DNA from: a virus
Length of the DNA: 27,696 nt
Reading direction: 5' to 3' (one strand)
IMG/VR virus record: IMGVR_UViG_3300021963_008622
Coordinates: 1 to 27,696 of that record
Shown: positions 12,849-26,179 of the stretch, one piece after another
Layout of the letters: every line of letters begins with the position of its first letter
Numbering within the stretch: the stretch's first letter is position 1
The notes under the pieces: model-generated
What the model saw: the letters and a program-made list of their open reading frames with translations, nothing else
Database searches by the model: none
What the model was told of the DNA's origin: nothing
Translations under genes and position numbers: made by a program

Positions 12849-13907
12849 ATGACATTTATTAAAACATTCGAAGCTTTCAAAAATCAAAGTTCACAAGTTT
12901 CAGAAAAGGCAATCTCAGGAGGTTCAGTAACTAAGGAGACTCCTAAGTCTGGCGAGCTTGCTAGATTCACAGTAGTTCTTAAAGCAACCGGTGATAACGA
13001 TACCATCAGTGATGCTAATCCTGCACAAAGCGCACTAGATCATCTTGTCAATAATCAAGAATTTAAAACTTGGTATTCTGACAAAACTACTAGCGCTGAT
13101 GCAGCAGGCCAACCGTTTACCAGTTTAAATTCAACATCAATTGCGTTCGTTGAAACTGGAAAACACAGACAAGCCGGCTTCTTAAAGAGAGAAAAAGCGA
13201 CAGAAACTTTCATTTTCAAGAGAATTGGTTCAGCTTCAACGACTGATAAAAATATGTCTGAGCTCAATTACGACGTCAAGAAATTTCCGGCTCAAGCCAA
13301 ATCAAATCTTTCTTCAGGCGGTACTGTTTATGCATGGAATGCTGAGCAGGAAAAGGATATGACTCTAAGCCCATCTAAGAAAATGCAGATTGCGCTAAAC
13401 GATCTAACCGTCGATGCTGCAATGAAAGATACAACTTCTCAAGCTGGAACTCAGGCGGCTTCATCAAGCACTGCGAGCTCTTCAGGAACACAAGGTTCAG
13501 CTGGAACTAGTGGAACCTCGGCAGTTGCTGCTTCTACTTCTTCTACTGCTGCACAATCTCCTTCATACGTAGGCCTTAAGAAGAGTTCAACATTTGATCA
13601 AAAGGTTCAAGATCTACAAAAGACAATCATAGCTAAGGGCGGAACCGCTGCCGACACAATTAAAACAAAGGGCGGATCTGACGGAAAATACGGAGCTGCT
13701 ACAGCTTCAGCAATCGGATCGTTGATTGGAACAAATAAAGAAGAGAACGAAATTACCGCAGACATTGACGCTAAATTGAAAACGGCTCTCGCTGGAGTTA
13801 CTGTACCGGCTTCGACTGGTCAAACCTCTGCCTCAAATCAACAACCTAAAAAACAAAAGTCTGGAGGTGGAGTAAAGCCTTTACCTGCACCAGCCGGTGG
13901 ACTATAA
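12849..13907 (+). CDS. Probable virion protein with peptidoglycan-binding-like C-terminal domain
   Basis: Residues 1-190 form an unrecognised domain. Residues about 195-245 are a Ser/Thr/Ala/Gly linker. Residues 252-300 (FDQKVQDLQKTII, then GGSDGKYGAATASAIG) fit the PG_binding_1 pattern VxxLQ...G...DGxYGxxT; the tail is Lys/Pro/Gly-rich. This would let the protein hold cell-wall peptidoglycan at infection. No lytic active site is evident. The N-terminus TFIKTFEAFKNQ resembles the T4 capsid-targeting peptide MKTYQEFIAE, so packaging in the head is possible (inference). A TATAAATA box lies upstream, and the next gene follows by 23 bp. Confidence 0.65.
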   Translation: MTFIKTFEAFKNQSSQVSEKAISGGSVTKETPKSGELARFTVVLKATGDNDTISDANPAQSALDHLVNNQEFKTWYSDKTTSADAAGQPFTSLNSTSIAFVETGKHRQAGFLKREKATETFIFKRIGSASTTDKNMSELNYDVKKFPAQAKSNLSSGGTVYAWNAEQEKDMTLSPSKKMQIALNDLTVDAAMKDTTSQAGTQAASSSTASSSGTQGSAGTSGTSAVAASTSSTAAQSPSYVGLKKSSTFDQKVQDLQKTIIAKGGTAADTIKTKGGSDGKYGAATASAIGSLIGTNKEENEITADIDAKLKTALAGVTVPASTGQTSASNQQPKKQKSGGGVKPLPAPAGGL

Positions 13908-13930: not shown

Positions 13931-15034
13931 ATGAGACATCAAATCAATGTATCGAACTACGCTCTAATGTTAGAGAATAAAGTTTATGCAGACCAATCAA
14001 TTGAATTTCCATTGAACGAAGCAGGATCAGTACATAAACTTTATCCGCTAAAGGTCGATCCGGATCAACAAACCGAGGCGGCTTTAACCAACATAAAAAG
14101 CGGTGCGAACGGAGGAGCCTACGTGAATCAATGGAATCAGTTAATTACTAGCATCAATGAACCTCAACCTGAAGCTCATAAAAATGATGGAACTGTACAC
14201 AATTATACGTTTATGATATTCCATGATGACAATAAGACTCCGATGACTTACATTTCATACCAAATGCAAAGTGGTAAGTACATCAAAGGTAGTGTAAAAT
14301 TGAATCCGAATTGGAAAACTGACCCTTTTTATTACGAGAAACCCGCGACGGTTGCCGGTCAGAATATTGATATTAACAAGATTGCAACATACGATCCAAA
14401 GGGTAAAATGAATGAGTTCATCGCAGCTTTAATTACGGTATCAATAGAAAAATTTGGAAAGAGTTGGACTAAGGCTCACATTGATTGGGTTAACGGTCAA
14501 ATTAACAAATGCAAAGCGCTTGGCGGTTTCTATGGAACAATCACAACTTATGCAAGTCGTCCATTCTTGACTGGCACGGGCGACGTTTCAGCAAAAATCT
14601 CAGCACTAACTGGCGGAGATAAGGACGCTGTTACCGGATTAGTGAATGATGCTAGCCTAAAAATTGCAGGCTCAGCGAATACGGCGGCTAAGTTAAACGT
14701 TGTGTTAGTTGCAATGAATGGAAAGCTTGGAGAATCATTTATCAGTTTTCAGGACGAGGAATCACTAATCGCAATGTATCAACTAATTTCTCCAGGATTC
14801 GGCTCGGGCCAAATATCGACAGCTTGGACTGCATTAGGCCGCGGAGGAAGTCCATTGGCCAATATAATTGAGGAAATTGACACTGCGACCGGAGCCCATG
14901 CAAAGGGATTAATGGTTTGGGCGATTGGAGTTAGAGGACTTACTGCGACAAACGCGGATGCAATTCGTTTGACCGGTTTTGACACAGCTTCATACTCGGC
15001 CAGCTTAGCTCAAATTAAAGCAGCTTTAGTATAA
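13931..15034 (+). CDS. Probable virion protein, 367 aa
   Basis: Not recognised. The protein is soluble and mixed alpha/beta. Residues 1-150 contain several strands with aromatic and Asn/Pro turns; 150-367 are Ala/Gly/Leu-rich helices (ISALTGGDKDAVTGLVND and similar). FPLNEAG at residues 26-32 matches the LxE-A/G type of cut site used by T4-like prohead proteases, but this is weak evidence. The ATG follows an A-rich stretch with no Shine-Dalgarno. The stop TTA-GTA-TAA is built into the TTTAGTATAATA box that drives the bS21 gene. Confidence 0.55.
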   Translation: MRHQINVSNYALMLENKVYADQSIEFPLNEAGSVHKLYPLKVDPDQQTEAALTNIKSGANGGAYVNQWNQLITSINEPQPEAHKNDGTVHNYTFMIFHDDNKTPMTYISYQMQSGKYIKGSVKLNPNWKTDPFYYEKPATVAGQNIDINKIATYDPKGKMNEFIAALITVSIEKFGKSWTKAHIDWVNGQINKCKALGGFYGTITTYASRPFLTGTGDVSAKISALTGGDKDAVTGLVNDASLKIAGSANTAAKLNVVLVAMNGKLGESFISFQDEESLIAMYQLISPGFGSGQISTAWTALGRGGSPLANIIEEIDTATGAHAKGLMVWAIGVRGLTATNADAIRLTGFDTASYSASLAQIKAALV

Positions 15035-16382: not shown

Positions 16383-16407
16383 AAAAGCCGCGACTGCGGC
16401 TTTTTTT
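16383..16407 (+). terminator. Strong rho-independent terminator
   Basis: AAAAGCCGC (16383-16391), loop GACT, GCGGC (16396-16400), then seven Ts (16401-16407). The TTTAGTATAATA box of the ligase gene begins two bases later. Confidence 0.9.
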
Positions 16408-16408
16408 G

Positions 16409-16420
16409 TTTAGTATAATA
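16409..16420 (+). promoter_or_regulatory. TTTAGTATAATA box before DNA ligase
   Basis: Placed between a terminator and a gene, 6 nt before ATG 16427. This is the best evidence that the motif is a promoter, since transcription must restart here. Confidence 0.65.
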
Positions 16421-16426
16421 ACCTAT

Positions 16427-17716
16427 ATGACAACTCAAGATTTTCAAACGGTCGTTAACTTCATTGAGGAAATGAAAGCGACATCATCAACGAATGATAA
16501 AAAGGTGATTCTACAGAAATACGACTCGCCTATGCTCAGAAAGTTATTCGAGTACGTGTATTCTCCGTTCAAGCAGTATTACGTCACATCAGATAACTTG
16601 AAGAAGCGTCAGGATCTTAGTTTCGATAACTATGATGATATATTCGCAATGCTAGACGATCTGAATGAACGTCGTGTGACTGGTCACTCTGCTATACAAG
16701 CGGTTAATGGTTTTATTGCCAAGAATCATGAGTTCGCAGATGTGATCTATGATGTGATTGACCGAAATCTAAAGACCAGAGCAACGACCACTTTAATTAA
16801 TTCAGTCATGCCAGGAACGGTGCCAACATTCGATGTTGCCCTAGCTGAAAAATTTGACGGTAATGAAAAGAAGGTCGACTTTGACTCTGGCGAATGGTGG
16901 GCAAGTCGCAAGCTGGACGGAGTCCGATGCATTACCGTAATTGACGAGCACGGAGAGCCCAAGTTTTATTCCAGAGCAGGTAATGAGTTCTTGACTCTAA
17001 GCGTATTAGCTGATGATATTAAGAAACTCGGTTTACGCAGTAAAGTTTTGGATGGAGAAGTTTGCATCATGAAAGAAGGAGGTCTTGAAGATTTCCAAGG
17101 CATCATTAAGGAAATTGGTCGCAAGGACCATACGATTGCGTCGCCTAAGTATTACGTTTTTGATTTTCTTGAGCTTGAGGAATTCAATGCTCAATCGGGT
17201 AACGTTTCGCTTGCAGCTAGATTAATTATTTTAAATGCAGTAATCACCGGCCTAACCTATGCAGAACCTTTAGTTCAGATACAGGTTGAGAGCAAGGAAC
17301 ATTTTGAGGAATTGGTAGCTGATGCAACCCAAATGGGTTATGAAGGCATCATGATGCGTAAATCCGTTGGATACGAAGGTAAGCGATCAAAGAATCTTTT
17401 GAAAGTTAAAAAGATGCACGATGCTGAGTACGTGGTCATTGATCATGAAAGCGATGTTCACCGAGTTATTGAAAACGGTCGTGAGATTGAAGAGGTGATG
17501 TTAAAGGCTGTAATCGTTGAGCACAAGGGTAATCGAGTTAGAGTGGGTTCAGGATTCTCTCTTGAACAAAGACGGTTCTATCATCAAAACCCAAATGAAA
17601 TTTTAGGTAAAACAATAACCGTCCAGTATTTTGAAGAAACCACTGACCAGCATGGAGAACACTCACTGAGATTTCCAGTAATAAAAGTAGTTCACGGACA
17701 GAAAAGAGAATTTTAA
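16427..17716 (+). CDS. ATP-dependent DNA ligase
   Basis: A phage-type ATP-dependent ligase of 429 aa. Motif I is RKLDGVR with catalytic K162; motif III VLDGEV is at 207-212; the later YEGIMMRK and LLKVKK segments are motifs IV and V; an OB-fold follows (GNRVRVGSGF near residue 370). The N-terminal 120 residues form an alpha-helical DNA-binding domain as in T4/T7-like enzymes. The enzyme seals nicks in replication and repair. The start is ATG 16427, since upstream in-frame codons fall in the promoter and terminator. It heads a run of DNA-metabolism genes with 7 bp to the guanylate kinase. Confidence 0.92.
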   Translation: MTTQDFQTVVNFIEEMKATSSTNDKKVILQKYDSPMLRKLFEYVYSPFKQYYVTSDNLKKRQDLSFDNYDDIFAMLDDLNERRVTGHSAIQAVNGFIAKNHEFADVIYDVIDRNLKTRATTTLINSVMPGTVPTFDVALAEKFDGNEKKVDFDSGEWWASRKLDGVRCITVIDEHGEPKFYSRAGNEFLTLSVLADDIKKLGLRSKVLDGEVCIMKEGGLEDFQGIIKEIGRKDHTIASPKYYVFDFLELEEFNAQSGNVSLAARLIILNAVITGLTYAEPLVQIQVESKEHFEELVADATQMGYEGIMMRKSVGYEGKRSKNLLKVKKMHDAEYVVIDHESDVHRVIENGREIEEVMLKAVIVEHKGNRVRVGSGFSLEQRRFYHQNPNEILGKTITVQYFEETTDQHGEHSLRFPVIKVVHGQKREF

Positions 17717-17723
17717 TTTAGAC

Positions 17724-18203
17724 ATGCATAAAAGAATAATCCTAGTCGGCCGTGCCGCAAGCGGTAAAGATTACCTCCGCAAGAAACTTGAAGCTCAAGG
17801 CTTCAGGTATGCAGTCAGCTACACAACTCGCCCACCCAGAGAAGGCGAAATTGATGGAGTTGATTACATCTTCATCTCGCCAACAGAGGCTCAAGAAATG
17901 ATTAAGAATGACGAGTTCTATGAGTACGTTGAGTTCAACGGTTGGGTCTATGGAACATCAAGAGATCAATTCGACGAGGATGATGTGTTCATCATGACTC
18001 CTACCGGGCTATCTCATGTTGATGAGGACTCTCGTAAAAAATCTTTTGTCATCTTCATTGACATTGATGAGGAGATTAGACGTGAGAGAATGGCGAACCG
18101 CAACATGCCAGGAGATTCGGTGGATCGTCGAATTGAGGCTGATCGCAAGGACTTTGAGAATTTTACGAATTACGATATAAGAATAACTAACCCAGGCTTT
18201 TAA
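17724..18203 (+). CDS. Guanylate kinase-like nucleotide kinase
   Basis: The P-loop is GRAASGKD (9-16), followed by the GMP-binding signature SYTTRPPREGEIDGVDYIF (33-51) and YVEFNGWVYGTS. These are the classic Gmk elements converting (d)GMP to (d)GDP. The length of 159 aa is shorter than cellular Gmk (about 200), the lid and C-terminal helices being reduced. The P-loop has GRAASGKD where cellular enzymes have GPSGxGKS. A role in dNTP supply for phage replication is expected; a changed nucleotide preference is possible. One base separates its stop from the next ATG. Confidence 0.88.
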   Translation: MHKRIILVGRAASGKDYLRKKLEAQGFRYAVSYTTRPPREGEIDGVDYIFISPTEAQEMIKNDEFYEYVEFNGWVYGTSRDQFDEDDVFIMTPTGLSHVDEDSRKKSFVIFIDIDEEIRRERMANRNMPGDSVDRRIEADRKDFENFTNYDIRITNPGF

Positions 18204-18204
18204 T

Positions 18205-18630
18205 ATGGCATTTGAATTAACCGGAATAATCATTGAAATATTCCCATCGCAGACTTTTAACAAGGGCTTTCGCAAGAGAGAGTTCGTTATTGAAACGGGA
18301 GATAAGTACCCGCAAAAAGTAGTTTTCGGACTTGTTCAAGACAAGTGTGACATGATCGACTCTTACGGAGTCGGTGATACCGTTGCAGTTGCATTTGACG
18401 TCAAGGGTCGAGACTGGACCGACAAGTCAGGTCAGACAAAGTACTTCAACACGCTTGAGGCATATCGAATCAGCGGTCAACAACGCGCAGCCGTCAAGGG
18501 CAAGCAAGCGGAAGAGGAAGACGACGATGACGAAATTTTCCGCAGTTTAGGCATTGACACAGGTCCGAAGAAATCAACCGCCAAGGTCGATAAGGACTGG
18601 AGCGATGATGACTTACCGTTTGACCTATAA
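18205..18630 (+). CDS. DUF3127 SSB-like protein with acidic C-terminal tip
   Basis: Residues 1-92 match DUF3127, an OB-fold family common in Bacteroidota: FELTGIIIEI, then RKREFVIETGDKYPQKVVF, then VAVAFDVKGRDW and the LEAYRI strand. Residues 95-141 are a Lys/Asp-rich tail that ends DDDLPFDL, like the protein-docking tip of bacterial SSB (DDDIPF). This argues that it works as the phage single-strand DNA-binding protein at the fork, between ligase/kinase and exonuclease genes. The SSB role is inferred from fold, tail and context; I see no separate canonical ssb in the window. Confidence 0.8.
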   Translation: MAFELTGIIIEIFPSQTFNKGFRKREFVIETGDKYPQKVVFGLVQDKCDMIDSYGVGDTVAVAFDVKGRDWTDKSGQTKYFNTLEAYRISGQQRAAVKGKQAEEEDDDDEIFRSLGIDTGPKKSTAKVDKDWSDDDLPFDL

Positions 18631-18709
18631 AAATTAGTACATGAAATTACATCAAGACATTCAGACTGGAAATATAGCAGGCTGAAACATTTAAAAAATA
18701 AAAATAGAC

Positions 18710-20134
18710 ATGACAAAACCGATTAAATTAACGATCGCCATCGTGGTACTTGCTATCCTAGCAGCGGCTTACGTATGGCATTCCAATTCAACTCACCGCT
18801 ACGTGAGACATGAAGTTCACTCACCAGAAGCAAAAAGGGATCTTGAAGCGCTTGACAAAGCACTAAAGATCATGAGAGCAAAGGATTGCTCTGATCCATT
18901 AAGCTGGTACTATCAAGGCGCAATTCACTGGATTCCGGACACTCTTGCTGACAATAAACTATGCGAATCTTATCATACGGTCGCTGATCTAAAAGAGGCA
19001 TGGGATAATTGCACTCACTCGCCTAGCGGTAAGGAGAAATTGCACTTCTTGGTTTGGCATAGACTTTACATTTGGCACTTTGAGAAAATCGTTCGTAAAT
19101 TATCAGGCTACAATGAGTTCACATTACCGTACTGGGATTATTCTGGACCCAACTCAAATAATAAAGTTTTACAAGAAATGTTCAGAACTCCGGGAACAGG
19201 AGTCTATGAAGCTTGCAGATACGATGCGCTTAACGCTGGCCAGCCGATCAGCGGAGAAATCGAAAGAGCTCTTGACTTGACCAACTTAATGAAGAAGACC
19301 GATTATAAAGATTTTTGTTATCAGATCAATGCTGCTCCACACGGTGCAATGCACGACTACATTGGTGCAGGCAATGATACTACTGGAACTTTGAAATTCA
19401 ATAATCCAATTACAAATTCAATCACTAACACCGGTCTAATGGGTTGGGTACCTACAGCAGGATTCGATCCAGTTTTCTGGACTCATCATTCGCAAATAGA
19501 CAGAATTTGGCAACAGTGGACCAATTCAGAAAATGGAAAACTTGTAACGCTAGAAGAGCTTAAAGAAGTTGAATGGCCTTACGTTTTCTTTGATGAGAAC
19601 GGTAAGAAAATTACGTATACTCTAGAGCAAGCACTAGACATTATCTACAAAATGGATTACGATTTTGATGATGTTAAGGTTCAGCCTAAAGCCTCTTCAC
19701 CACGAGTAAGTTCGTATCCAGAAACGGTATTAGCAACTTCAGCTGAGCCGATTAAGATAAACAGTCAAATTACTGATGCTGTGACTCAACTTAAATTGAC
19801 AGGAGATCATCCAAAAACAATTAAATTAGTATTGACCGTATCTTACACCAAGATGCCTCATGGAGTTTATGAAGTCTATCTCAATAATCAAAATGAATTT
19901 AGCACAAGCGATAATGAGTTCGTTGGTTACATGACCTTTTTTGGAACAGACCACAAAATGTCTGGCGAAAGTTGCCCAAAGGGCTGTTGCACTCCATTGA
20001 CTAAAGCAGGTCGTCCAACCTTTGTTTTTGAGTATAATATTCCGTATTCGCATACGAATAAGATTCAAATTTACAAACACAATGGTAAACACACAGGTGA
20101 TCTAGTCATTGAGAAAATAGAATTTAAAAAGTAA
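18710..20134 (+). CDS. Membrane-anchored tyrosinase / polyphenol oxidase
   Basis: A 474-aa type-3 copper enzyme. Residues 7-23 are an N-terminal membrane anchor, placing the catalytic domain in the periplasm or outside. CuA: H73 (AIHW), then CTH (C101-x-H103, as in the Cys-His thioether pair of fungal tyrosinases), then VWHRLYIWHFE (H117, with H112 and H123 nearby). CuB: APHGAMH (H211, H215) and GFDPVFWTHHSQIDRIW (H259/H260). YDFDDV at 317-322 resembles the tyrosine motif before the linker. Residues 340-474 form a beta-rich C-terminal domain like the shielding domain of plant PPOs, with a CPKGCC cluster (422-427). The family oxidises mono-/diphenols to quinones. H103-x13-H117 is longer than the usual x8. 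The last base overlaps the exonuclease ATG. Confidence 0.92.
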   Translation: MTKPIKLTIAIVVLAILAAAYVWHSNSTHRYVRHEVHSPEAKRDLEALDKALKIMRAKDCSDPLSWYYQGAIHWIPDTLADNKLCESYHTVADLKEAWDNCTHSPSGKEKLHFLVWHRLYIWHFEKIVRKLSGYNEFTLPYWDYSGPNSNNKVLQEMFRTPGTGVYEACRYDALNAGQPISGEIERALDLTNLMKKTDYKDFCYQINAAPHGAMHDYIGAGNDTTGTLKFNNPITNSITNTGLMGWVPTAGFDPVFWTHHSQIDRIWQQWTNSENGKLVTLEELKEVEWPYVFFDENGKKITYTLEQALDIIYKMDYDFDDVKVQPKASSPRVSSYPETVLATSAEPIKINSQITDAVTQLKLTGDHPKTIKLVLTVSYTKMPHGVYEVYLNNQNEFSTSDNEFVGYMTFFGTDHKMSGESCPKGCCTPLTKAGRPTFVFEYNIPYSHTNKIQIYKHNGKHTGDLVIEKIEFKK

Positions 20135-20757
20135 TGAAATACGTATCAATTGATATTGAAACGACAGGCCTCGACTCAGAGGCCTGTCAAATTTTACAGA
20201 TCGGCGCCGTCATTGAGGATACTAACGATCCCAAACCTCTTGATGAACTTCCTAAATTTATGTGTATGCTTGAGCATGATACCTATTCAGGTCAGCCGAC
20301 TGCTCTAAGCATGAATGCCTGGATCCTAAAGATCTTGTCAGGTCTGGAAGGTTTAAGCAAGGATGAGCGTATCGAGTATCGTAAAGCCAACAATATTATT
20401 CCAGCAGCGCTTGCTGCCAAGCAACTTCAAATGTGGTTGATGGCAAACGGTTTTAAAATGGAATCCACTGGAGCCGTTAAGATCAATGCAGCCGGCAAGA
20501 ACTTTGCAACGTTTGACAAGCTCTTTTTGCAAAAGTTACCGAGCTGGGGCTCATGTATTCAAATGAGACAGCGCATCATTGATCCAGCAATTCTGTGCAC
20601 TGATTGGAAAGAAGATGATAGTTTGCCGAACTTAAACACCTGCTTGAAAAGGTTTGATTTGCCTGGAGAAGTTACGCATGATGCTTGCCAGGACGCGCTC
20701 GATGTGATTCGCGTGATTCGTTCAGCCACTCATAATTACACAATTAATAATAACTAA
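20134..20757 (+). CDS. DEDDh 3'-5' exonuclease (DnaQ-like)
   Basis: ExoI motif SIDIETTGLD (D7, E9), ExoII in GKNFATFDKLFL (D128), and ExoIII HDACQDALD (H182, D187) make a complete DEDDh active site. At 207 aa it is a stand-alone exonuclease with an insertion of about 40 residues before ExoII. Likely roles are proofreading, repair or end trimming of phage DNA; RNA as substrate cannot be excluded. The ATG overlaps the tyrosinase stop, so both are read from one message. A perfect 10-bp hairpin lies 30 nt into the gene. Confidence 0.88.
   Translation: MKYVSIDIETTGLDSEACQILQIGAVIEDTNDPKPLDELPKFMCMLEHDTYSGQPTALSMNAWILKILSGLEGLSKDERIEYRKANNIIPAALAAKQLQMWLMANGFKMESTGAVKINAAGKNFATFDKLFLQKLPSWGSCIQMRQRIIDPAILCTDWKEDDSLPNLNTCLKRFDLPGEVTHDACQDALDVIRVIRSATHNYTINNN
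20163..20188 (+). repeat. Perfect 10-bp inverted repeat at the exonuclease 5' end
   Basis: GACAGGCCTC (20163-20172), loop GACTCA, GAGGCCTGTC (20179-20188), then AAATTTT. It covers codons 10-19, next to the ExoI motif. It could attenuate transcription or limit translation from the tyrosinase message. Confidence 0.75.
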
Positions 20758-20794: not shown

Positions 20795-21763
20795 ATGGTA
20801 TCTAACAACGTAAGGCTTGGCTATTGCTGTATTAACTTATCACTAGCTGATCAAAAAATTACCGCCAATCGCGGTATGATAAAGAGGACCTTTCAGGAGA
20901 AGGGTCCTTTGTACTGTGGCGAGCTCGCTCATCAAAACGTCAAGGACATTCTTAAAATACTTGAATGGAATCTTGCAAACGGCATTTACGTGTATCGAAT
21001 GTCAAGCGATATTTTTCCCTGGATGTCAGAGTACGAAATTCAACAGCTTCCAAACTTTTCCGAAATTCTGCCTGACATGCAGGCGATCGGCCGCTTTGCG
21101 CTAGCAAATGGCATTCGAGTCTCAATGCATCCTGGCCAGTTCGATGTTTTGCCGTCTCCGACCCCAGCAGTTGTCACCAAAACGGTCAAGGACCTGGATC
21201 AGCACTGTGAAATCATGGATCTTATGGGCTTGCCAGTAAACGTGAGTTTTCCAATCAACATTCACGTCGGTGGTACGTACGGCGACAAAGCATCAGCTGC
21301 TCAGCGTTTTTGCGAAAATTTCCAGTTGCTAAAGCCAAACACCAAGGCGAGGCTGGTCGTTGAGAACGATGACAAGGCTGCTCAATACTCAGTAACCGAT
21401 CTCTATCAAATGATCTATCTACGTATCGGTACACCAATCACATTCGATTTCCATCATCACCGCTTCAATACTGGTGATCTCACCGAGGAGGCTGCACTAC
21501 GTCTAGCCTACACCACTTGGCACGGTCACACTCCTCTCACTCATTACTCAAGTTGTAAGAAAACGTTTGAGGACGCATCAGTCATTGCCCGATCTCATGC
21601 TGACCATGTTTACGAGAAAATAAATAATTACGGCTTAGCTATCGACATCGAGGTCGAGGCCAAGGCCAAGGATCTTGCGGTTCTCAGGTATCGTGAGCAA
21701 TACGAAACATTGCTTGAAAACTACCTAGAATTCAATGATACAAGATTCTTAGAAATAGTTTAA
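20795..21763 (+). CDS. uvsE: UV-damage endonuclease UvdE
   Basis: A full-length UVDE TIM-barrel enzyme of 322 aa. Motifs: RLGYCC (7-12), MHPGQ (111-115), NIHVGG (155-160), VENDD (189-193), DFHHH (218-222), THYSS and the C-terminal DIEVEAKAKDLAV. The His, Glu and Asp residues form the metal site. The enzyme nicks 5' of cyclobutane dimers, 6-4 photoproducts and some abasic or mismatched sites, starting alternative excision repair. With ligase, exonuclease and SSB-like protein nearby, most of a repair path is present. A short hairpin (20885-20890 with 20903-20908) lies about 90 nt into the gene. Confidence 0.93.
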   Translation: MVSNNVRLGYCCINLSLADQKITANRGMIKRTFQEKGPLYCGELAHQNVKDILKILEWNLANGIYVYRMSSDIFPWMSEYEIQQLPNFSEILPDMQAIGRFALANGIRVSMHPGQFDVLPSPTPAVVTKTVKDLDQHCEIMDLMGLPVNVSFPINIHVGGTYGDKASAAQRFCENFQLLKPNTKARLVVENDDKAAQYSVTDLYQMIYLRIGTPITFDFHHHRFNTGDLTEEAALRLAYTTWHGHTPLTHYSSCKKTFEDASVIARSHADHVYEKINNYGLAIDIEVEAKAKDLAVLRYREQYETLLENYLEFNDTRFLEIV

Positions 21764-25336: not shown

Positions 25337-25351
25337 TAACTTTTGGTATAT

Positions 25352-25363
25352 TTTAGTAAAGTT
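25352..25363 (+). promoter_or_regulatory. TTTAGTAAAGTT box before the Fpg/Nei gene
   Basis: A variant of the TTTAGTATAATA element, 9 nt before ATG 25373. It overlaps the leftward late-like box. Confidence 0.4.
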
Positions 25364-25370
25364 ATTTATC
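25361..25370 (-). promoter_or_regulatory. Late-promoter-like box GATAAATAAC, leftward
   Basis: A minus-strand copy 24 nt before the start of the 146-aa gene, overlapping the rightward box by three bases. Confidence 0.45.
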
Positions 25371-25372
25371 CC

Positions 25373-26179
25373 ATGCCAGAAGGACCAGAATGCAGAAGAG
25401 TTTACGAAGGAATTTCGGAATTCTCTAAAAATCGAACAATTACACAATTTGAAGTGTTGGGAGGGAGATTCCTAAAACGAGCTCCAGACCTTGAAGTAAA
25501 GCCTGCCGTGCCCGTTCGTGTGATTGGCGGTGGAGTTAAGGGCAAATTCATTTGGTTGGAATTCAATGACGAGACCTGTCTCTGGATAACGCTGGGGATG
25601 AGCGGATACTGGTCAACCGATAAACAACCGCACAGTCATTTTAGAATTGGATTTGAGGATGGTGCCTCGCTCTATTTCGTAGATCAGCGTAGGTTCGGCA
25701 CCTTAAAATTCACAAAGCTTGAGGAATTGCCAAAGAAGTTATCAAGCTTGGGACTTGACATGCTAAACGATCAGACCTCGAGCATGTATGATTTTATTAG
25801 AAGGGTTGAACTACCTAAGGCTCAAAAGAAAACTGTTGCTGAAGCATTAATGGATCAGTCTCTCTTTGCTGGAGTCGGTAATTACATCAAATGCGAAATT
25901 TTGTATCGTTGTAGAGTATCGCCGTACCGACTTGTAAAAGACCTGACGCAGGACGAAATTTGCCAACTTTGGAATTGGGGAAAACTTATCATGCGAGCCT
26001 CATACGAACAAGGTGGAGCCAGCATCCGAAACTATCGTCAAGTAACCGGTGAGTCTGGTAGTTTTACATTTGAATTTGAGGTGTACGCACAGAAACAAGA
26101 TCCTCTCGGTAATCAAGTGGTTAGGGAAGAAACTTCAGACGGCCGCACAACTCACTGGGTTCCGGAATTACAATCATAG
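25373..26179 (+). CDS. Fpg/Nei-family DNA glycosylase with zincless finger
   Basis: The start MPEGPE fixes ATG 25373, since P2 and E3 are the catalytic residues after Met removal. K58 in GVKGKF matches the conserved lysine. The helix-two-turn-helix is SLFAGVGNYIKCEILY (163-178). The C-terminal zinc finger lacks all four Cys; VYAQKQDPLGNQV to GRTTHWVP keeps the beta-hairpin and the Arg (R258), as in zincless-finger enzymes such as NEIL1 and mimivirus Nei1. The family removes oxidised pyrimidines or purines and cuts the strand. The length of 268 aa is normal. Divergent from the 146-aa gene with a 36-bp shared promoter region. Confidence 0.92.
   Translation: MPEGPECRRVYEGISEFSKNRTITQFEVLGGRFLKRAPDLEVKPAVPVRVIGGGVKGKFIWLEFNDETCLWITLGMSGYWSTDKQPHSHFRIGFEDGASLYFVDQRRFGTLKFTKLEELPKKLSSLGLDMLNDQTSSMYDFIRRVELPKAQKKTVAEALMDQSLFAGVGNYIKCEILYRCRVSPYRLVKDLTQDEICQLWNWGKLIMRASYEQGGASIRNYRQVTGESGSFTFEFEVYAQKQDPLGNQVVREETSDGRTTHWVPELQS

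Follow-up and report, generated by a model that had tools for sequence, protein, structure and literature searches.

A tyrosinase/polyphenol oxidase gene of large T4-type phages with a phage-specific cysteine cluster in its lid loop

Does a gene for a tyrosinase/polyphenol oxidase (PPO), located between replication and repair genes in viral DNA, truly belong to a phage, and what might its product do there? The question is posed by a stretch of 27,696 nucleotides (IMG/VR record IMGVR_UViG_3300021963_008622, analyzed over its whole length and referred to below as the window), in which positions 18,710–20,134 constitute a single uninterrupted ATG-initiated open reading frame (ORF) of 474 residues on the plus strand, the strand of all parts of the gene located below. 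The encoded protein matches the Pfam family PF00264 (E-value, 2.4e-29; 103.7 bits versus a curated cut-off of 22.6) and, weakly and below threshold, PPO1_DWL. An earlier sequence-only reading of this DNA had assigned the protein to the tyrosinase/PPO family, and this assignment is borne out by the profile match, the invariant copper ligands, and the structure model described below; its nature as a type-3 copper protein of that family is well supported. On the same strand, the gene is preceded by those for an ATP-dependent DNA ligase (16,406–17,716; phrog_114, E-value 9.8e-90), guanylate kinase (17,724–18,203; phrog_1815, E-value 3.3e-41), and a DUF3127/single-stranded DNA-binding (SSB-like) protein (18,205–18,630; PF11325, E-value 9.4e-27; phrog_4932), and is followed by those for a DnaQ-type exonuclease (20,134–20,757; phrog_192, E-value 8.7e-14) and a UvdE UV-damage endonuclease (20,795–21,763; PF03851, E-value 1.7e-54). 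The tyrosinase has no match in PHROGs, whereas its neighbors do match phage families.

Both borders of the gene are reproduced elsewhere. The stop codon and the start codon of the exonuclease have one base in common (TAATG at 20,134), as had been noticed earlier, and both junctions (18,630/18,710 and 20,134) recur in the contigs of five relatives (L002, L003, L004, L005, and L008), the upstream one being found also in L015, L019, and L021. In L008, the order of ligase, guanylate kinase, SSB, tyrosinase, exonuclease, and UvdE is kept with ~60–80% protein identity across the operon core. Because the same junctions recur in other contigs, a chimera or host contaminant is excluded, in agreement with the claim of the sequence-only reading, which had named a chimeric join at 18,630–18,710 or 20,134 as the point to be checked. 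Bacterial contamination or a chimeric contig, ruled out by this synteny in at least seven other contigs, is further opposed by the capsid, portal, and terminase genes on the carrying contigs and by the phage-only clade in the tree described below, so that its probability is negligible. Among the near relatives of the window, dN/dS values of 0.037–0.053 indicate strong purifying selection and hence maintenance of the tyrosinase protein.

Several features of the surrounding DNA were also recorded. The gap upstream of the tyrosinase (18,631–18,709) measures 79 nt in the window versus ~24–33 nt in L002, L003, and L005. The ORFs at 12,849–13,907 and 13,931–15,034 have no Pfam match; their N-termini (of the MKxIKxFExF or MR..NYALxLE type), like those of many ORFs in L009, L010, L017, and L020, recall the capsid-targeting sequences that internal head proteins of T4 bear. 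The protein encoded at 13,931–15,034 shares only ~40% identity with the corresponding proteins of L002, L004, L005, L015, and L021, an unusually fast change in a comparison where most flanking genes are 80–99% identical. At 25,343–26,179, a formamidopyrimidine-DNA-glycosylase-like (Fpg-like) protein (phrog_21295) is encoded; in L008 and L017, relatives of this protein lie close to the tyrosinase.

Two scans of IMG/VR viral contigs, a search that had been suggested together with the original annotation, yielded 23 contigs with close relatives of the window tyrosinase. Matches to the T4-type major capsid protein (gp23 type) occur on six carrying contigs, three of which (G003, G004, and G007) bear terminase, T4 portal, and gp23, and the others (G012, G013, and G015) gp23; T4-type terminase and portal genes are present on the contigs of L008 (252.6 kb), L009 (476 kb; G004), and L012 (299 kb; G007). 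With these hallmark genes and the synteny, the tyrosinase qualifies as a phage-encoded cargo gene, and its residence in phages is well supported. The portal of the L008 phage is 39% identical to that of the 462-kb phage record LR756500 and 32–36% to those of further records of huge phages, Prevotella Lak phages among them; that of the L009 phage is 85% identical to the portal of the 635-kb record LR745206; and that of the L012 phage is nearest to those of Microcystis phage Mel-JY01 and Flavobacterium phage immuto (~40%). In a Nature study of 2020, the Mahaphage clade, for which replication in Bacteroidetes was predicted, took in the Lak phages and those of the study's genomes that exceed 634 kb (PMC7162821). 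On the short contigs of L014, L016, L084, and L085, phage-family proteins are present and no hallmark T4 genes were found; the tyrosinase of L016 (9,938–11,281 of its contig), a copy with most of the lid loop lost, accompanies a virion structural protein (phrog_1645).

The flanking genes divide the relatives into ~9 separate gene neighborhoods, from which it follows that the tyrosinase has no fixed link with the replication/repair operon in which it had been placed, although such neighbors do surround it in the window. Across the carrying contigs, no consistent neighbor gene points to a substrate, and phrog_36717, tried as a marker for other contigs, gave zero matches anywhere. L006 and L083 derive from Lake Tanganyika metagenomes (PMC8245535), and in L006 (4,409–5,881) QueC-like and QueD-like genes read by eye near the tyrosinase suggest 7-deazaguanine synthesis.

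The structure model was predicted from a homologue alignment of 58 rows (16 phage and 42 bacterial), with a mean pLDDT of 88.9 and a pTM of 0.89; it replaced a first prediction from 14 rows, the quality of which was low around the active site (pLDDT, 74). Structure comparison of the model places it within the tyrosinase/PPO core fold. The best match is the Hahella tyrosinase HcTyr1 (PDB ID: 8b74; Z-score, 30.9 across residues 30–474, over 360 residues; identity, 23%), which shares both the core and the lid, but differs in having Asn instead of Gly at the position following HisB1 in the alignment, and its aligned part is devoid of a CxxGCC cluster. Next come enzymes of plants, Ralstonia, and Verrucomicrobium with Z-scores of about 25–28, and the core domain gives about 25 at 2.1–2.5 Å against plant, Verrucomicrobium, and catechol oxidase structures, among them 8bbr, 5ce9, and 1bt1. 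The plant latent PPOs and catechol oxidase have in common with the protein the core and lid fold (Z-scores, 24.5–27.9) and a weak PPO1_DWL match, but possess a waterkeeper Glu and a gatekeeper Phe at about 22–28% identity. The C-terminal β-sandwich lid domain (residues 340–474; 19,727–20,131), identified from the model strands, matches the latent PPOs to their C-termini, in accordance with the PPO-like C-terminal domain proposed earlier. The overlay on catechol oxidase that had been called for shows agreement over the core, and the lid fold is matched to residue 474.

The six copper-ligand His residues of CuA and CuB are H73 (HisA1; 18,926–18,928), H103 (HisA2, in C101-T-H103 with the putative thioether Cys; 19,010–19,018), H117 (HisA3; 19,058–19,060), H211 and H215 (HisB1 and HisB2, with Gly212 at HisB1+1; 19,340–19,354), and H260, which is preceded by H259 (19,484–19,489). 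All of these His residues and C101 are invariant in the 58 sequences, as expected from the CuA and CuB residues listed at the outset, where H259/H260 had been left as alternatives; in the usual numbering the position of H260 is HisB3 and that of H259 the "seventh His" (PMC8049008). The waterkeeper position (HisB1–4), whose role is described in PMC8049008, is occupied by Asn207 (19,328–19,330) in the window, the remaining phage rows having either Asn or Asp there, and Asp216 is found at HisB2+1. In most characterized PPOs, the waterkeeper is Glu; this Glu together with Asn or Asp at HisB1+1 favors monophenolase activity, with exceptions, and some enzymes with Gly at HisB1+1 are tyrosinases (PMC8049008). 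Since Asn207 replaces the waterkeeper Glu and Gly212 sits at HisB1+1, catechol oxidase-type activity appears to be a better guess than true tyrosinase activity, which we state with moderate confidence as a reasoned prediction of substrate preference. By analogy with one plant PPO, in which Glu-to-Gln substitution at the waterkeeper abolished diphenolase activity (PMC8049008), the Asn could also lower all activity.

This leaning of the active-site residues makes melanin formation from tyrosine less likely than o-diphenol oxidation. It also bears on the idea that the enzyme, jointly with the adjoining repair genes UvdE and Fpg, supplies the infected cell with a pigment resembling melanin or with a shield against UV and oxidants. 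Melanin is the best-known role of the tyrosinase family, UvdE lies directly downstream with the Fpg-like gene (25,343–26,179) nearby, and the order is repeated in L008; however, other lineages have the tyrosinase without UvdE beside it, the residues argue against strong tyrosine hydroxylation, and a periplasmic enzyme would need an exported substrate. We consider such a pigment or shield unlikely.

The lid carries F410–F411 (19,937–19,942), of which F411 is invariant in the 58 sequences and aligns with Phe397, the placeholder residue of HcTyr1 (PMC11609597): in the alignment of relative L023 with 8b74, the second Phe of the TFFG motif pairs with chain residue 397. A search with the window's own C-terminal part returned hemocyanin units only, and the 8b74 alignment came through L023. 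In the adjacent lid loop, C422-PKG-C426-C427 (19,973–19,990) forms a cluster of the CxxGCC type, which is present in 14 of the 16 phage rows, whereas none of the 42 bacterial rows has a Cys in that loop. The bacterial loop is rich in His and Met (146 of 654 loop residues versus 900 of 19,347 elsewhere, the rows being related and not independent), with three or more such residues in 28 of the 42 rows. The CPKGCC sequence, at first noted within a PPO-like C-terminal domain, is therefore present but not generic to PPOs: it is a hallmark of the phage clade, where it takes the place of a loop rich in His and Met. The cluster is not essential, because it is missing in L085, which keeps a His/Met loop, and in L016, which has lost most of the loop. 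Three changes are needed for it on the tree; a topology in which L085 branches off before the remaining phage rows is not rejected (p-AU, 0.21), and under it the cluster would be explicable by one gain and one loss.

A comparable arrangement occurs in fungal pro-tyrosinases (Aspergillus oryzae melB and Agaricus bisporus PPO4), in which the placeholder Phe of a C-terminal lid precedes a loop with Cys residues; in the mushroom tyrosinase, the CXXC motif of this loop has been proposed to load copper (PMC4157443). The fungal CXXC differs from the phage CxxxCC pattern and the proteins are only about 20% identical, and the Cys loop of the phage clade seems to have a separate origin within that clade. 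A copper-loading role of the CxxGCC loop is a reasoned prediction from this analogy, and the loop swap may mean that, in a copper-loading loop built into the protein, one way of binding copper has given way to another. No HMA copper chaperones were found in the phage contigs, which speaks neither for nor against self-loading.

The same features could be read differently, as those of a protein that binds copper or oxygen without catalysis (akin to hemocyanin, or serving as a copper sink). The top PDB matches by phmmer are molluscan hemocyanin units, and the waterkeeper Asn, the extra Cys cluster, and a placeholder Phe that may keep the site shut would suit this reading. However, the hemocyanin scores owe part of their height to repeated units, PPOs outrank hemocyanins by structure, and Bacteroidota relatives have most of the same residues; a mere binder is very unlikely.

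As to the location of the enzyme, a hydrophobic N-terminal signal/anchor (residues 7–25; 18,728–18,784) coincides with a model helix of residues 3–25, in line with the membrane anchor predicted at the start, and would hold the protein outside the cytoplasm. The window's own N-terminus, anchored like those of its nearest kin, has no lipobox; lipobox-type N-termini were read by eye in L010, L012, L016, L017, L018, L020, L084, and L085, with a weak motif in L008. The predicted export signal is well supported, and, because the N-termini of the window and its relatives carry an anchor or a lipobox-type signal, we infer export to be a property common to the phage tyrosinases.

In a tree of 52 proteins, all 15 phage sequences included form one clade (support, 100/98) within Bacteroidota tyrosinases, adjoining lipoprotein tyrosinases of Flavobacterium cerinum, Emticicia, and Mucilaginibacter, and a second tree without the lid-loop columns agrees with this placement. 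These bacterial lipoproteins, the sister clade, are 44–49% identical to the window protein over most of its length and have the same ligands, lid domain, and N-terminal export signal; they differ in lying on bacterial contigs and in a His/Met-rich lid loop without Cys, and the window copy in its hydrophobic anchor without a lipobox. The position of the clade beside Bacteroidota tyrosinases points to capture from Bacteroidota. The L009 and L012 tyrosinases are each ~60% identical to that of the window, yet the portal of the L009 phage has no match in the L012 contig; hence, the gene was probably captured once and later passed between unlike large T4-type phages, a single capture being the simplest reading, not proof. 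A plasmid source was unsupported, with plasmid relatives only 26–28% identical at best among the matches listed.

Altogether, the protein may be an exported, lid-plugged, copper-loaded dicopper PPO that protects the infected cell or its envelope, an overall account that we judge about evenly poised between right and wrong. The phage would make the enzyme in the infected cell and send it through the inner membrane, where the N-terminal anchor (a lipid anchor in relatives) is predicted to hold it facing the periplasm or the surface, with copper probably taken up on that side. The C-terminal lid would plug the active site via Phe411, and the CxxGCC loop beside it would probably deliver copper to that site, in the way suggested for the CXXC loop of fungi. 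Once copper-loaded and opened, the enzyme is predicted from its residues to use O2 in converting diffusible o-diphenols, and perhaps to a small extent monophenols, to quinones. In the least certain step, the infected cell or envelope would most likely be protected by removal of toxic phenolics or by deposition of a quinone/melanin-type polymer; such protection of the host is our leading guess for the benefit to the phage. Alternatively, quinone cross-linking of surface proteins or polysaccharide might alter the host envelope so as to exclude competing phages, as would befit the predicted envelope location and a gene that moves between phage lineages like optional cargo, but no link to other exclusion genes was seen, and we regard this use as quite unlikely.

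In line with the earlier remark that no described function of a phage tyrosinase is known, no phage tyrosinase was found in PHROGs, INPHARED, BFVD, or the literature searched, reports outside these collections being possible, and the window tyrosinase has no relatives among 50,697 phage genomes. One paper combining virome and tyrosinase (PMC12147045) was irrelevant, as it concerns autoimmune epitopes. A scan with a TAT-type bacterial subfamily revealed a second group on three viral contigs (L097, 2,488–4,116; L098, 2,662–4,107; L099, 358–1,788; PF00264 E-value, 4e-35 or better). Like the window protein, these are PF00264 enzymes with export signals on viral contigs, but they have a TAT-type signal, belong to another subfamily, and lack the Cys cluster. 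Because they represent a different tyrosinase, phages have probably taken up such enzymes at least twice. We tentatively propose, while thinking it more apt to fail than to hold, that large T4-type phages of Bacteroidota remodel or protect the host envelope with an exported dicopper oxidase having its own Cys copper-loading loop, unseen in the sampled bacterial relatives, and that such enzymes were acquired independently at least twice. Were this true, huge phages with a conserved, strongly selected copper oxidase would, on infection, alter the chemistry of phenolics, quinones, and copper at the surface of the host. The enzyme, with its unusual copper loop, offers something concrete to test and bears on the ways in which hosts are protected or reshaped by huge phages, in freshwater and elsewhere. 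Within the second group, the L097 and L099 tyrosinases are 60% and 54% identical to that of L098, L098 and L099 have one neighboring protein in common as read by eye, and relatives of the L099 copy occur in Caulobacter phage Cr30 as well as in phages of Ochrobactrum and Rhizobium.
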